A stretch of 64,000 nt of DNA from assembly GCA_003327425.1 (NCBI GenBank), contig QOQW01000006.1, forward strand, positions 124,001 to 188,000, written 5' to 3'. A program made the translations under genes and the position numbers. This DNA is from Candidatus Ozemibacter sibiricus (lineage in GTDB: Bacteria; Muiribacteriota; Ozemobacteria; Ozemobacterales; Ozemobacteraceae). The notes below the pieces were generated by a model. It saw only the letters and a list, made by a program, of their open reading frames with translations. It was not told where the DNA came from and did not search any database. How positions within the stretch are numbered: the first letter of the stretch is position 1; each line of letters starts with the position of its first letter. Shown here one piece after another: positions 1,681 to 9,527 of this stretch.

Positions 1681-2802
1681 TCAAGGCCCCGGTCGGCGAA
1701 GCCATGGTCGCCAGTCGGGGCGATCCGGCGGGGGGAGCAGATGGGCCAGGGCGGCCGTCTCGGTGGCGGTGAGGGGCCAGGCTTGTTCCTTGTCGACCTG
1801 GAACCAGAGGATGCTGTCGATCCCAAGGCGGGGGGCGACGGTCAGGGCTTCGGCCAGCCAGGCGACCCGGTCGCCGCCCTGCGGCGAACAGGCGGTTTCC
1901 CAGATCACCAGCGGATGATCGGGGGCCAGCCGCTGTAGATCATCGACAGGTCGAGCGAACAGGTCGGCGAAGGAAATCCAGGTGCTGTCCCAGCCATGCT
2001 CGACGCGGGTGCGCGAAGTACCCCAGTTGTAGCCGTCGACCCCGACGAGGTCGACCCAGGCCGGCCCGGGAAACCACGCGGCGAACGTGTTCCAGTCGGG
2101 GTGATCCGGATGCTGCGGGTCGGGCGGGGCGGGGTCGGGGTGGTGGTTCGGGCAGAACGCCCAGAGCGCCTAGGTGGCTTGCTCCTGGTGGAAGATAGCC
2201 ACGACGTGGCGCCATAGACGGCGATACAGTCGGGGACTGGCCGGCCCATACTCCTGGCGGGTGGTACCCCAGTGGTAGTGGGCGAGATTCATTTCATGGG
2301 CGAAGCGGATGACCAGGGGCCGGCCCCAGTCGCGGGCGGCCCGGGCCCATCGACGAAGGAAGGAGTCATAGACCCCGCCCATGATCTCGGCGGCCGGGAT
2401 GGCTACGGTGACGGAGCCCAGCACGACCATGGGTTCCCAGGTGATCACGGGCAGGGCGCCGAACGCCCAGATGGCCTCGCAGGAGGTGGCCGGGAACTGG
2501 TCGAGATCGAGGGCGGTGGAGGCTGGCCACTGGCGGTAGAACCCGACCAGCGAAGGGACCAGACCGGCGTGGGTGGTCTCGGCGATCAAGCGATCGACGG
2601 TGATCGGCTCACCTGCCAATTGAATGCCGAGACGGACGGGTCTGACCTCAGGCGTAGTCGTCGCGGCCGGCATCGGTGGGAGGAAGTTCCCGCCCGATGC
2701 GGGGGAGGTGGCAAGGCTGGCGAGGGCGACGAGCAGGCCGACACCCAACCGGCCGACCAGCCTGGCCCCGATGGCCCGAGGCGGCAGGCGTGGACCGCTC
2801 AT
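1681..2802 (-). pseudogene. Secreted GH26-like glycoside hydrolase, interrupted by in-frame TAG
   Basis: Reading from the ATG at 2802 gives a signal peptide and 210 residues, then TAG at 2170-2172. The same frame then stays open for 162 more codons to a TGA at 1681. Both halves belong to one enzyme: the first has the GH26-type acid/base motif RFAHEMN, and the second continues with LWAFCPN, a VDLVGVDGYNWG strand and WETAC, which would carry the nucleophile Glu. Together they make a 373-residue protein of normal family length. GH26-like enzymes cleave beta-linked polysaccharides and are often encoded with exopolysaccharide synthases as trimming hydrolases. The start overlaps the glycosyltransferase stop as ATGA. 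Without readthrough the product lacks its nucleophile. A base-calling error, amber suppression or a true nonsense mutation cannot be distinguished here. Confidence 0.8.
2170..2172 (-). other. Premature in-frame TAG codon in the GH26-like gene
   Basis: Codon 211 reads TAG in the context ACC TAG GCG. A single C-to-T change from CAG (Gln) explains it, and the restored sequence would contain a CCAGG pentamer. Confidence 0.85.
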
Positions 2803-4445
2803 GGCGACGATCGCAGACGATCGGGATCGTTGAAGTATAGAACAGAGTACAAAATAATGGAATGGCACAAACACCAGAACATGTTGGCGAGGATGGCGGC
2901 GCTCTCCTGCCGTTCGAACCAGAGCCGGTTGGCACCCCACACCGCGGCCACGAAGCTCAGGGTGGCCAGCGTCAGTTGCGGCCAGAGCTGGGTCAGGGGC
3001 AAGGCGACGCTGCCGGCTTTCGGGGTGACCTGGAAGGTGCCGCGGATGCCCAGCAGCCCTTGCAAGGAAGCGCGCATGTAGACAGGAAAGGAGATGGCGA
3101 GCAGCAGCTGGCCGCGCACCGCTTCGCTCAGGCGGTACTTGCGGTGGGTCAAGGTCCAGAAGAAGGTGGTCATCGACAGGATGATGTACGGGGTGAAGAA
3201 CAGGAAGTAGAACCCAGGCCAGGCGAAGTAGCTGGGAACCTCGAACAGCAGGTAGAGAACAGGGCAGAGGAACATGACGAACAGGGCCCAGCCAATGAAA
3301 TAATGGGTACCCGACAGGAAGTATTCCCACCACTTGTAGGCGGACAGCTGCCTCGGGTGGGCCCACCATTCGGCCAGGATGCGGCGGAACAGGCCGGTAG
3401 TGCCCAGCGCCCAGCGGAATTGCTGCTTGAAGAAGCCGCCGAGATCTTCCGGCCCCATGCCGAAGGCGCTGACGAAATTGCGGTAGGCCGAACTCCAGCC
3501 ACGCTGATGGAACCGGAGCGAGGTGGCGAAATCCTCGGTCACCGACTGCTCATCGAACTTGCCGACGTCCATCAGGGCCTCCCGCCGGAAGATGACGTTG
3601 GTGCCGCAGCAGAACATGGCGTCTTTGAGGCTCTTGCCTTCGCAGATGTACTCATAGAACACGGCTTGCTGCATACCCGCGGCGTGCGCCACCCGGTTGG
3701 TCTCGAAATTCGAGTAGTACTGGGGGGTCTGGATGAACGCCAGGCGTGGATTCTGCTCCATCATCGCCACCAACGGCTCGGCGAACCCGGGCAGAGGATT
3801 CATGTCAGCGTCGAAGACCACCAGATACTTCTCCGGTTCGGGGGGGCGGGGACCGTTCGTGGTCAAGGTCGCCCCCTCCGGCGGGTGGCCGTCCAGGAAA
3901 TCGAGAAAGTCGTTGATGATGCCGGCTTTCGCCCCGCGCCAGCGCCGCCGGAAGACATGGACGCCGAGGCGCGCCGCCAGCTCGTCGATCTGGCGGCGAT
4001 AGGCCGCCATCTGATCGGGATCCCGGCCGGGGAGGTCATACCGCGTGTCATCGAGGAGGTAGAGGCGTTTGTTGGGATAGGTCAGGTTGTAGAAGCAGGT
4101 CAGCGTGTTCTCGAGAACGCTGGGGGGCTCGTGGTAGGAGGGGACCAGCACGGCAATGGGAGGGAATTCGGTCAGCGGTGGGGGCAACATGGTGCGACGA
4201 TCGAGCACCTTTTTTTCCCCCAGGAGATGGAGCAGGTTGAGGAAATACCCCACACCGTGGACCAGAATGAACCCCTCGGCCAGCAGCAGAGCCAGCGCCA
4301 GGGCCTTTTCGAACCAGAGGTAGTCCGATAGGAAGAACAGGGCGGTGCGGACGATCAGGTAGGTGAACACAGCCACCAACGCGAACCCGGCCAACAGCAG
4401 GAACACCAGGCTGCGCGAGGGAAGATCGCGGAAGAAGCTGGCCAT
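2799..4445 (-). CDS. Processive family-2 glycosyltransferase (cellulose/NfrB-type synthase)
   Basis: An intact 548-residue inner-membrane enzyme. Two N-terminal membrane helices (about residues 10-75) precede a GT-A catalytic domain. The domain has a substrate DD (LLDDTRYD), the nucleotide/metal DxD (VFDADMN), the catalytic-base TED (SVTEDFATS) and the processive-synthase motif Q(Q/R)xRW (QQFRW). Several C-terminal helices probably form the translocation pore. By family knowledge it polymerises a nucleotide sugar into a beta-linked polymer and passes it across the inner membrane. There is no C-terminal PilZ domain, unlike BcsA. The ATG at 4445 is preferred to an upstream GTG at 4616, which lies inside the preceding barrel gene's true frame. 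The stop overlaps the hydrolase start as ATGA. The polymer is not identifiable. Confidence 0.9.
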   Translation of the reverse strand: MASFFRDLPSRSLVFLLLAGFALVAVFTYLIVRTALFFLSDYLWFEKALALALLLAEGFILVHGVGYFLNLLHLLGEKKVLDRRTMLPPPLTEFPPIAVLVPSYHEPPSVLENTLTCFYNLTYPNKRLYLLDDTRYDLPGRDPDQMAAYRRQIDELAARLGVHVFRRRWRGAKAGIINDFLDFLDGHPPEGATLTTNGPRPPEPEKYLVVFDADMNPLPGFAEPLVAMMEQNPRLAFIQTPQYYSNFETNRVAHAAGMQQAVFYEYICEGKSLKDAMFCCGTNVIFRREALMDVGKFDEQSVTEDFATSLRFHQRGWSSAYRNFVSAFGMGPEDLGGFFKQQFRWALGTTGLFRRILAEWWAHPRQLSAYKWWEYFLSGTHYFIGWALFVMFLCPVLYLLFEVPSYFAWPGFYFLFFTPYIILSMTTFFWTLTHRKYRLSEAVRGQLLLAISFPVYMRASLQGLLGIRGTFQVTPKAGSVALPLTQLWPQLTLATLSFVAAVWGANRLWFERQESAAILANMFWCLCHSIILYSVLYFNDPDRLRSSP

Positions 4446-4612
4446 GGTCAGAAGTTCCGTTCCAGGAGGAAGCCGAAAGAGGTGGCATCCCATTGGCGAG
4501 ACCGGTGGACCATTCCGCACAGTTCGACGGCCCAGCGCCAGGCGAACTCGCAGTGCCAGGTCAGTTCGAGGCGCGTGGCTCGGTTGTCGTCGGTATCGTC
4601 GAGGCGGGTCAG

Positions 4613-4615
4613 TCA
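4613..4615 (-). other. Premature in-frame TGA near the 3' end of the TPR/barrel gene
   Basis: The codon between GTG and CTG reads TGA. After it the frame continues for 54 codons with beta-strand pattern and a C-terminal Phe. TGG (Trp) or CGA (Arg) are the likely original codons. Confidence 0.7.
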
Positions 4616-6046
4616 CACATCGACCTGGTGGCGGTCGGTCGAGGCCAGCAGCCGCTTCGAAAGATCGGCCTGATGGTGAAGGGTGAAGGCGCGGCTACGA
4701 TAGGACTGGGGGGTCCAGTAGGGGTGGAGGATGTCGGCCAGCCGTCCCGACCGGGTGATGAAAACCGAGGAGCGATCAGTGTCGCGCGCTTCGCCGGACA
4801 CCACCAGGCGCCAGAGGCGAGGATGCTCGGCCACGCGGTAGCCGGCTTCCCATTCGAACAGGCGGCCGCGGTTGTCGTCGGTCAGGTCCTGGCGGGTCCA
4901 GCGGCCCTGCACTCGAAAGCGGCGATGGGCCGCCCAGACGGCAGACAGCCAGCGTTGGCGGGCCTGCAGGCCGTTACGCAGGCCGATGTCGTTGACGAAC
5001 TGGTCGAGGCGATCGAGGCCCAGGCCGATGTCGAGGCGATCGCCCACGGTGGCGCGCAGCCCTACCTGCCCGGCATCCCGGTCGGGAAGGGCCTGGCCGA
5101 GAATGCGTCGTTCGGAAGCGAACTCCTGGCGCTGCCAGGAGGCATCCAGGCGCACCCAGGGATTGAACTCCCCCCGCAAGGTCAAGGAAGGGCCGCCGGC
5201 CCGGAACGCCCCGCCAAAGAGGCCGGGATGGTATTCCCAGCGGTTTTGGCCAACATCCAAGCGCCAGCGTGGGCCCAGAGCGGTCTCTCCTTCCAGGCGC
5301 CAGCGCCACCAGGACATGCGGGCCAGTTCCCCGCGGCCTTCCTCGGTCCAGCGATCGAACCGCATTCGGAGCAGAGGGCGCCCGACCACCTGGTGCTTGC
5401 GCTGGGCGTGGCGGACCAGACTGTGCAAAGGATCGAGCCGGAGGATCTCGCGGTAGGAGGCGGCTTCATGGTCGCGCAAGCCCAGGCGGTTCTGCACCTG
5501 GGAGAGGTCGAACCGGGCCTCGAGGTTGCCTGGTTCGGTCTGCAGAAGATGGCGGAAAAGGGGAAGGGAAGCCTGCAGGCGTCCTTCCCAGACGGCCCGC
5601 TTGGCCCGCTCTTCGAGGTCGAAGATCTTCTGTTGTCGGGCATCGGCCAGGGTCGAGGCCAGGATCTCCTCGAGGATCGTTCGCGTCGCAGAGGAAAGCT
5701 GGCGGTTGGAATCACGCGCCAGCTCGGCCAGGCGGTCCCATCCGTCCCAATCGGGGGGGCGAACGAGAGCAGAGCCAAGATCGAGGGTCAGACTGTGCTG
5801 CTGCAACCGTTCACCGATCTGGAAATCGGCCGCCGGGCGTGAGTGGCTGCGGTACAGGGTTCGAGCTTCGTCGGGGCGTTTGTTCCAGAAGGCCAGGCGG
5901 GCGCTTTCGCGCTGGGCCACGGGATCGTCGGGATCGGCCTGCCGCAACCGGCGGTAGGCCTCGCGGGCTTCGTCGTAGCGGCGGTCCCGGGCCAGCAGGC
6001 GGGCCTGCCACAAACGGACCAGGAAATGATCGAGGGGTGCGCTGCC

Positions 6047-6052
6047 GGGGGG
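6047..6052 (-). other. Frameshift site (run of six C on the coding strand) in the TPR/barrel gene
   Basis: Protein similarity to TPR repeats passes from one frame to another at this homopolymer. A seventh C, or a -1 slip, would join the two halves (coding strand CTG GTC CCC CC GGC AGC). Confidence 0.75.
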
Positions 6053-8017
6053 ACCAGGGTGTGGAGCGCCTCGCGCCGTCGCTCGGTGGCCGCCAGGAGC
6101 ATGACCAGGCCGAGGCGGGCGGGCAGGCAGTCGGGCTGGCGTTCGAGGGCTCGTCGGAAGGCAGCCTCGGCCGCGGACAACCGCTGGCGGCGCATCAGCT
6201 CTTGGCCCCAATCGGCCAGGTGGCGGGGGGCCGTCTGGTGGTCACGAGCGATGGCTTGTTCCAGTTCGGGGGTGCGTTCTCCGAAATGGGCCAGCAACCG
6301 AGCGAGCCGCAGGTAGGGGTGAAGAGGCCGTTGCGGTTCGAGGGCATCCAACAGCTGGCGGGCGGCGGTGGCCTGCCCAGTCAGATCGAGAAGACGGTGC
6401 AAGTCGACCAGCGTCTCGATGGGATGGGGATCATCGAGGCGACCGTCGAGGGGCAGGGGGGCGAGGGCCACCGCGGCCGAGGCGGGATGGCCGCTTCCCA
6501 ACCAGGCTTCAGCCTGCAGAAGGTGGGCCGCGAAGGCTTCAGGGGAGCCGGCGGGGGCGGCGGCGGCCGCGGTGGCACCCAGGGCCAGGGCTCCCGCGAA
6601 GTCCTTTTCGAGAAGTCGGATGCGACCTTCCAGCCAAGCCAGGCGGGGAGTGGCCGGATGGCGGAGCCGGAGGAGGGCGCACACCTGGCGGGCTTGGGCA
6701 TAGCGTTCGGCGCTGGCCAGGCTCCAGGCCAGGGCCAGGCCCAGATCGAGGTCGGCGGGGGCCGCCGCCGCCAGCCGACGATAGATGGGCCACGCCCGGG
6801 CGTGGTCGCCCGCGGCGGTCAGCGCATCGGCCCAGCGACGTTCCAAGGCAAGGGTGGCCGAGCCGTTGGTCTGGCTCTGCAAGGCCCGCTCGTACGCCTC
6901 GCGGAAATCGACGAACCGCCCCTGGGCCAGGCAGACATCGCCCCACAAGGCCAGATCGGTCGAACTGGGCGACGGCCCGGCGGTCAGGGGCTTGACCGTG
7001 GCTTCGGCCGAAGCCGGATCGGCGGCTCGCAGGTATTGCCGCCCCAGTTCGCGCCTGACCTCGGCATCCCCGGGGTCGTCGAGCAGGGCGGCTTCCAGGG
7101 CGGGGACGGCCCGGCCGGTCTGGTTCCGCCAGCTGCTGACCAGGGCGAGCTGGCGTCGCAGCCGGCGGCTCTCGGACGAACGGCGCTCTTTCGCGAGAGC
7201 CAAAGTGGGGTCATTCAGCAACGCTAGGGCTTTGGTCCAAGCAGTTTCTGCCTTGGCCAGGTCGCCAGAATAGAGGGCCACTTGTCCTTCCAGGTCGGCG
7301 ACTTGCCAGGCCAGGGCGCCCGGCGTCGCCGCCAGGCGGTCAAGCGCGGCCCGCGCCTCGGCCAGCTGGCCGGTCCAGAGGGCGACCTCGGCCTGCCGCA
7401 CCAGAAGGTCGGGGGGCGGGTTCGCTTCGGTGGTGGCTTCCCGGAGAATGACGAGCGCCTCGGGCAACCGGCCGGCGCGGATCAGCAGTTCGGCGAGCTG
7501 GGGTCGGCGAGCGGGCTGGCGGTCGCGGTGGGCGAAGGCGTGGTCGAGATGGGGAGCCGCCTCGGCGGCGCGACCGACCCGCAGAAGTAGGTCGCTGAGC
7601 AGGGAGCGAGCCTCGAGGTTCAGCGGCTGGTCGACGACCACTCGATCCAGGAGGGAACGTGCCTCGATCTGGTGCGCCGGGTCGTCGGCCAATAAGGTCG
7701 CCAGTTGCAGGCGGGCCTGCGCGTCCGAGATCCAGTCGGCGGGCGGCACCAGGCTGCCGGAGGAGAGACGTGCCCGGGCCTCGACACCACCCGTGAGCGC
7801 CAAGAGCATGACCAGCCACAGGAGCCGAACCCATGGCCGGGGTGGGCGATGGTGGGCCATACGAGGCTGGCAGACCTGGTCAGCGTGGACCACCCTGTCA
7901 CTGCCTACCGCAACGGTCTGGGAGCCCTTTGCGGCAAAGTTGGAACGCCGCACACGGTCGTCGATCGCGCGCCGGGAAGCAACCCGTGGGTTGGGCATGG
8001 CCGATGCCGGTTTTCTC

Positions 8018-8653
8018 TCACCGGCCTTGCAGAGAGCGGCGCAGTTCTTCGGCAGCTTCGGCTTTGCGGTCGGCCCAGATCAGGACGTTCGCCAGTTTGC
8101 GCCGGACCTGGACATCATCGGGGCGCGCTTCCAGAATGCGTCGGAACTCGGCGATCGAGGCGTCATACTGCTTGAGCCAGCTCAGCACGTCGGCCAGTTT
8201 CAAGCGGGCGGCCAGATCGCCGGAATCCGAGGCCAGATGAGCCTGCAGAAGGGTGCGAGCGGTCTCGAATTCCTGCCGGGCGATGTGCAGGTCGACCAGC
8301 GCGAGCCGCAGCGAGGCATTGACCAGGTGGGGAGGCAGCGTCTCGGCCAGCTGTCGGGCTTCGGTGGCCTGGCCGCTCCATAGCAGGACGGCCGCCAGCT
8401 CGGCTTTGGCTTCCAGCAGGTGAGGCTGATCGGCCAGGAGGCGTCGGTACTCCTAGATCGATTCGTCGTACGCCTTGGTATAGCTCAAAACCTTGGCCAG
8501 CTCCCATCGGGCCTGCCAATCCGGAATGGGATCGCCGAACCCGGGCGGCAGGGGAGCAGGTGGACTGGCCGGGGGAGCGGCGACCAGCAGCGGAGGATGG
8601 AGGATCGAGCTGACGGCCAGAGCGATCAAGCAAAGAGCAGTGGCGTGCTTCAT
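8018..8653 (-). pseudogene. Periplasmic TPR protein interrupted by in-frame TAG
   Basis: The ATG at 8653 overlaps the preceding gene's stop (ATGA). A signal peptide (ending near LLVAAPPA) leads into a first TPR whose helix reads YDESI, then TAG at 8453-8455, then EYRRLL in the same frame. A second repeat further on reads YDASIAEFRRIL, so the stop falls exactly on a TPR position and the two parts form one 211-residue protein. The frame ends at TGA 8018. It is presumably an accessory periplasmic scaffold for exopolysaccharide export. The truncated product would be only 66 residues, including the signal peptide. Confidence 0.78.
8453..8455 (-). other. Premature in-frame TAG in the TPR gene
   Basis: The context is ATC TAG GAG. 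CAG (Gln) would fit a TPR helix and, as in the GH26-like gene, would recreate CCAGG. Confidence 0.8.
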
Positions 8654-9135
8654 GAGGCAGGTTCCTTCAACAGCAGGCGAAACTCCCGGGCGGCTTCCGC
8701 AAAGCGCCCGAGGCGGGACAACAGCCGCCCATACAACAGACGAAGGGCAGGCGAGTCGGGGTGGCGGGTCACCTCATCGGCCAGAACGCCGAGGGCGGCC
8801 TCCCCTTGGTGGAACCGCAGGAACAGTTCCACCAGCGCATCGGCGGTGTAGGGTCGGAACCAGCGGTGCTGGAAGGCCTCCGCCAGGGTCTGGCGCGCGG
8901 CTTCGACCTGACCGAGAAACAACCGTATCTCGGCGAGATGCAGCAACAGATCGCGGCTGGGGACGCCGGCCCGTTCGGCGGCTTCGTAGTGAGAGAGGGC
9001 GCCGACCAGGTCGCCTTCCTGAAAGAGGGCCTCCCCTCGACGAAAGTTCACCCACCCCGGCTTGAGTATCTGGTACGCCACGCTGGTCAAGATGGCGACC
9101 AGAAGAAGGAACAAACCCAGGCGAGTCCAGCTCAT
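8650..9135 (-). CDS. Membrane-anchored TPR protein
   Basis: An intact 161-residue protein. One N-terminal membrane helix (about residues 5-25) is followed by four TPR-like helical pairs covering the rest (for example RRGEALFQEGDLVGALSHY). The topology suggests a single-pass inner-membrane protein with a periplasmic scaffold. Its start overlaps the STAS stop as ATGA and its own stop overlaps the next TPR gene the same way, so the operon is translationally coupled. A role in assembling the exopolysaccharide secretion apparatus is inferred from context only. Confidence 0.8.
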   Translation of the reverse strand: MSWTRLGLFLLLVAILTSVAYQILKPGWVNFRRGEALFQEGDLVGALSHYEAAERAGVPSRDLLLHLAEIRLFLGQVEAARQTLAEAFQHRWFRPYTADALVELFLRFHQGEAALGVLADEVTRHPDSPALRLLYGRLLSRLGRFAEAAREFRLLLKEPAS

Positions 9136-9527
9136 GGCTGATCAGGGGAAGGGGGTGGGGTGGGGCCGGCGCCAGGACCGTTGGCTGGAACGGGCGGGGG
9201 ATCGGCCAGAGCGGCAGCGAGATCGGGATAGAGGGGCAGGGCTTTGTCCACCCGGGTCAAGGAAAACACCCGGCGGACAGGGCTCTGCAAGTTGCAGGCC
9301 CGCAGGCTGCTCTGCAGTCGGGAGATGGTGGTCCAGGCCCCGACGATGGCCGTCAATCCGGAAGAATCGAGGAACGTCACCCCGGTCAGGTCGAGCACGA
9401 GGTGGACCCGGCCCGCTTGCAAGTGGCTGTTGACGGTGGCCCGAAAAACCGGGGCGGACTGCAGGTCGAGGCTTCCCTCGAGGCGCAGGATGGTGAACGG
9501 CGGGCGCAGTTCATGGGTGATGTTCAT
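9132..9527 (-). CDS. STAS-domain (anti-anti-sigma type) protein
   Basis: A 131-residue cytoplasmic protein. Residues 1-95 form a STAS domain, and the DSSG segment (LDLTGVTFLDSSG, near residue 53) contains the serine that kinases phosphorylate in SpoIIAA-like proteins. A proline-rich C-terminal tail follows. The ATG at 9527 is preceded by GGAG at good spacing. It is the first gene of the exopolysaccharide operon, directly downstream of the promoter at 9589-9616. By family knowledge such proteins work in partner-switching with a serine kinase; no kinase partner is encoded in this window. Confidence 0.85.
   Translation of the reverse strand: MNITHELRPPFTILRLEGSLDLQSAPVFRATVNSHLQAGRVHLVLDLTGVTFLDSSGLTAIVGAWTTISRLQSSLRACNLQSPVRRVFSLTRVDKALPLYPDLAAALADPPPVPANGPGAGPTPPPSPDQP

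Follow-up and report, generated by a model that had tools for sequence, protein, structure and literature searches.

Probable recent inactivation of a synthase-dependent exopolysaccharide operon in an uncultured Ozemobacteraceae bacterium

Organization and predicted function of the operon

The window, i.e., the whole 64,000-nucleotide stretch of DNA analysed here, corresponds to bases 124001 to 188000 of contig C39 in a 5.68-Mb assembly (58 contigs, 97.9% complete) of an uncultured bacterium of the family Ozemobacteraceae. Six minus-strand genes, read from position 9527 to 1681, encode in this order a STAS-domain protein, two TPR proteins (TPR1 and TPR2), a TPR/barrel exporter, a GT2 polysaccharide synthase, and a GH26-type hydrolase. 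As the intact reference we used G002 (Candidatus Ozemobacteraceae), a genome of the same genus and the closest relative carrying the operon; the identities given below are to this genome by tblastn. The STAS gene (9132 to 9527) is intact, and its product (Pfam STAS, 3.7e-19; 69% identity) scores above the NCBIfam cut-off for the anti-sigma factor antagonist superfamily. The start of the intact TPR1 gene (8650 to 9135; Pfam TPR_19, 2e-12; 73% identity) overlaps the STAS stop codon in an ATGA. The TPR2 gene (8018 to 8653) is broken by an in-frame TAG, across which it retains 89-90% identity. The exporter gene (4448 to 7860), which encodes TPRs and an outer-membrane β-barrel, is interrupted by both a frameshift and a TGA, and it aligns in two frames with a 1126-residue protein of G002, the two halves having identities of 60% and 70%. 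The GT2 gene (2799 to 4445; 89-90% identity) is intact and encodes a BcsA-like synthase without a PilZ domain that matches the Pfam GT2 families. The last gene (1681 to 2802; 69-70% identity) is broken by an in-frame TAG, and its ortholog in G002 matches both Pfam GH26 and a PDB structure.

The six genes were originally predicted to be coupled. They are indeed closely packed, with ATGA overlaps at three joints, but a gap of approximately 157 bases (7861 to 8017) separates the TPR2 stop from the likely start of the exporter gene at 7860. The same gap is approximately 210 bases in G002, and this joint is unlike the others. A PilZ-like gene, recognized by inspection and placed by gene prediction and neighbourhood, adjoins the operon convergently in three genomes: at 846 to 1670 on the plus strand of the window, at L012:4632-5456 in G002, and at L013:10202-11023 in G012. 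This neighbour may be the c-di-GMP input that the GT2 protein lacks.

The six genes make up a BcsC/BcsA-like, synthase-dependent exopolysaccharide cassette. The GT2 translation contains DDTRYD, FDADMN, TEDF, and QQFRW, that is, the D,D,D and QxxRW motifs of a predicted processive synthase, and its nearest PDB match is BcsA (3e-40). The model of the C-terminal half of the G002 exporter (pLDDT 92.1) has TPR helices and, after them, a 16-strand barrel; its nearest folds are BcsC, the best match, PgaA (4y25), and PelB (9h80). The intact G002 protein is a TPR-bearing outer-membrane barrel exporter, while the copy in the window is broken before the barrel. The G002 hydrolase scores above the Pfam cut-off for GH26 (3.4e-10), and its PDB match to endoglucanase H (CtLic26A; 1.4e-25), a lichenase, is well ahead of those to mannanases. 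Assignment to GH26 rests on this profile match and on two catalytic glutamate sites that are invariant in the homologues; the product encoded here is truncated between them.

The cassette shares with the Bcs cellulose operon a synthase nearest to BcsA/CelA, a TPR exporter with a 16-strand barrel whose best fold match is BcsC, and a linked hydrolase. However, the G002 synthase reaches only 203 bits (6e-60) against the NCBIfam CelA cut-off of 699, and the GT2 protein lacks the PilZ domain; the assignment as a Bcs cellulose operon proper was rejected on these grounds. The hydrolase belongs to GH26 and not to the BcsZ family, no BcsB was found among the six genes, and STAS and separate TPR genes are present. 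The exporters of the Pga (PNAG) and Pel systems, PgaA and PelB, share the TPR and barrel fold, and the TPR domain of PgaA is established as a scaffold for the polymer and a modifying enzyme (PMC9384988). Unlike those systems, the operon here has no deacetylase gene, and its hydrolase is of another family. By homology, the synthase of the intact form would make a chain, predicted to be glucan-like, across the inner membrane. This chain would be guided through the periplasm by TPR1, TPR2, and the TPR half of the exporter, trimmed by the GH26 enzyme, and released from the cell through the 16-strand barrel. The STAS protein and the adjacent PilZ-like protein are probable regulators.

Four lesions in three genes

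The original prediction listed two TAG codons, one TGA codon, and a frameshift, all with homologous flanks, and tblastn against G002 confirmed the four lesions. All are on the minus strand, and homology to G002 carries on past each of them. The TAG of TPR2 (8453 to 8455) replaces a codon that is sense in G002, lies inside an alignment of 90% identity, and leaves approximately two-thirds of the protein downstream. The TGA of the exporter gene (4613 to 4615) and the TAG of the GH26 gene (2170 to 2172) lie inside alignments of 70% and 69% identity, respectively. In the exporter gene, residues 27 to 593 of the G002 protein align with 7761 to 6049 and residues 600 to 1126 with 6031 to 4451 in another frame. 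The frame loss is thus real; its proposed site, a six-base C run at 6047 to 6052, is plausible, and the combined DNA and protein alignments bound the one-base loss to approximately 6031 to 6079. The exact base is uncertain because G002 has no homopolymer at that site. In favour of genuine inactivation, the number of lesions per gene approximately follows gene length; the long GT2 gene, however, is unbroken, which counts against it. Comparison with the nearest relatives, proposed as a check on the original prediction, found each of the same six genes to be a single open frame in G002.

The frameshift lies upstream of the remaining TPR region and of the whole barrel, all of which are lost from the product. 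The TGA corresponds to residue 486 of the model, within the modelled strand 481 to 493, the fourth from the end of the barrel; alone, it would cut off the last barrel strands. An alignment of 58 sequences places the GH26 stop codon, a TAG at residue 211, between two invariant glutamates: Glu170 is kept, and Glu302, likely to be the nucleophile by homology, is removed. With an exporter product that stops short of the barrel, a truncated TPR2, and a hydrolase without its likely nucleophile, this genome should lack secretion through the operon, although the synthase is intact.

To look for other breaks, we compared this genome with the genes predicted in G001 and G002, which covers genes with a detectable relative. 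For contig C39, this comparison took in 81 genes (31,707 residues) and showed true breaks only in the three operon genes; no further break survived checking in 187 genes of the relatives (68,379 aligned residues from C39 and stretches of other contigs). The earlier statement that comparable breaks are absent elsewhere is therefore borne out by homology for genes with a relative and now extends to 187 genes. The operon accounts for 2,561 of the approximately 68,000 residues, and if lesions were evenly spread, all four would fall there by chance with a probability of approximately 2e-6. Apparent breaks on C39 upstream of the window and one on contig C1 proved to be antisense open reading frames, and one on contig C35 was the natural end of AroQ. 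An automatic filter set aside five cases, of which two were the exporter and TPR2 genes themselves and three were antisense open reading frames. A six-frame comparison was dropped in favour of predicted genes since antisense frames swamped it. A homology-free scan for in-frame stops by codon usage was rejected because it gave an excess of false calls in this GC-rich genome. G002 shows apparent breaks of its own (C75:287, C66:7693, and C311 near 11163; loci L163 and L167) in genes that are whole here.

Timing of the inactivation and alternative explanations

The dN/dS values of the six operon genes against G002 are 0.08-0.32, compared with a median near 0.11 for 72 other orthologs, and relative-rate tests with G012 as the outgroup detected no acceleration. 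The operon was under normal constraint for most of its divergence from G002, and the three broken genes, which carry disabling changes relative to intact orthologs after this earlier constraint, are probable pseudogenes. When amino acid changes in the broken genes were polarised with approximately 50-65 homologues, 39 were unique to this genome and 44 to G002, i.e., there was no missense excess over G002; outside the operon, the lineage studied here is 1.26 times faster than G002. Among 266 highly conserved columns, this genome alone deviates at three and G002 alone at four; one of the three is an exporter tryptophan, conserved without exception in 46 homologues, that is arginine here, a change in favour of inactivation. 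Approximately 1 in 31 substitutions in the operon genes creates a stop codon. The three stops taken alone gave an estimate of approximately 93 neutral substitutions, which was rejected because the missense balance disfavours a value of about 90. A joint fit of the stops and the missense balance gives approximately 30-40 neutral substitutions, or approximately 0.5% of the operon, under simple Poisson assumptions with estimated site fractions. Because the absence of a missense excess allows so few neutral substitutions, three nonsense changes are somewhat above expectation, the chance of three or more being approximately 0.07-0.14 at the best-fitting value; this counts against genuine inactivation.

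The operon is also eroding in other members of the genus. In G012, STAS is preceded by a complete GH26 gene (L013:2922-4142), while in G002 this upstream gene is a remnant (L012:13466-13966) in which the N- and C-terminal ends are joined in frame and the catalytic core is deleted. In the genome studied here, 207 bases separate STAS from the next gene, and the upstream GH26 gene is absent. The third congener, G001, gave no match to the GT2 synthase and has other genes at the syntenic site in place of the operon; the synthase is present in 3 of the 24 family genomes searched. The loss of the catalytic core in G002 and the absence of the operon from G001 indicate that erosion runs through the genus; since more than one assembly is affected, an artefact is less likely.

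Thin or mixed metagenome coverage could nevertheless have produced all four lesions as local base-calling or consensus errors. In favour of such errors, the operon has no excess of missense changes beside the stops. However, an error density high enough for three nonsense changes should bring in missense changes as well, just as neutral decay would, so that their absence counts equally against an artefact. Such errors would also need to halt at the operon edges. No break was found elsewhere in the 134 kb compared, even though the contig has 46 C/G runs of at least seven bases, and 34 of these lie within intact genes. Together with the erosion seen in other assemblies of the genus, these observations make consensus error unlikely. 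The original prediction had ranked sequencing error low; a genome-wide error rate is excluded, while a local error or a mixture of strains keeps a small share of the probability. In such a mixture, co-occurring strains with different null alleles, arising by parallel loss of a matrix polysaccharide under selection, would have been stitched together by the consensus. Bacterial populations are known to lose matrix genes repeatedly, and a composite would account for several null changes with few missense changes. It requires, however, that several alleles be at or near the majority in one assembly, and no sign of polymorphism was seen; we regard it as improbable. If it were true, the loss would be repeated and probably favoured, and the assembly would be a snapshot of parallel polymer loss.

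Phase variation and translational recoding, both offered in the original prediction, fared worse. Although the frame loss may sit in a C run, where slippage could switch the exporter off reversibly, that run has only six bases, is absent from G002, and is not a long conserved tract; it is one of 164 six-base runs on the contig, 124 of which lie in intact genes. The three nonsense substitutions would be left unexplained, and phase variation is thus very improbable. Recoding, with the stops read through and a ribosomal frameshift, might explain why the sequence past each stop is still well conserved. Yet the stop codons of 156 genes are TGA in 131, TAG in 19, and TAA in 6 cases, and TGA terminates all six operon genes. 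The three stops stand in place of three different residues in the relatives, and no other in-frame stop was found in the 187 genes. No stop-reading anticodon occurs among the 44 tRNAs, a set that lacks, for example, an isoleucine tRNA and may be incomplete. We give recoding next to no credence.

A genuine and recent inactivation of this conserved operon in the lineage is the best-supported explanation, given the intact genes in G002, the normal past constraint, and the other erosion of the operon in the genus, and we consider it probable. Of the recent selective loss originally proposed, the recency therefore holds, while the word "selective" found no support. A first disabling mutation would have released the operon from constraint, and the remaining lesions would then have accumulated, an order of events that we infer. 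Whereas locus loss in exopolysaccharide operons removes the genes, here they are still present and broken by point changes, and the loss therefore appears to have been caught early.

Distribution of the cassette and significance of its loss

The cassette of GH26, TPR, TPR-barrel, and GT2 genes, often with STAS, also occurs in Desulfobacterota, Gammaproteobacteria, Chlamydiota, Verrucomicrobiota-type, and Riflebacteria genomes. At 67 GT2 loci in other genomes (L076-L142, e.g., L081, L095, and L140), the exporter gene accompanies the synthase on the same strand in 64 cases, GH26 in 59, and TPR2 in 57, compared with 27 for TPR1 and 24 for STAS. No exopolysaccharide operon of this GH26-linked type was found described in the open-access literature searched. 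Since the GH26 protein is nearest to a lichenase, a mixed-linkage glucan product is a testable guess.

As a class of event, gene decay is ordinary; the cassette it has hit is less so, and its occurrence at 67 loci may matter more than the loss itself. For a phylum without cultured members, the lineage studied here would provide an example of matrix-operon loss that is both early and roughly dated, and the intact sister copy allows it to be compared with the unbroken form.
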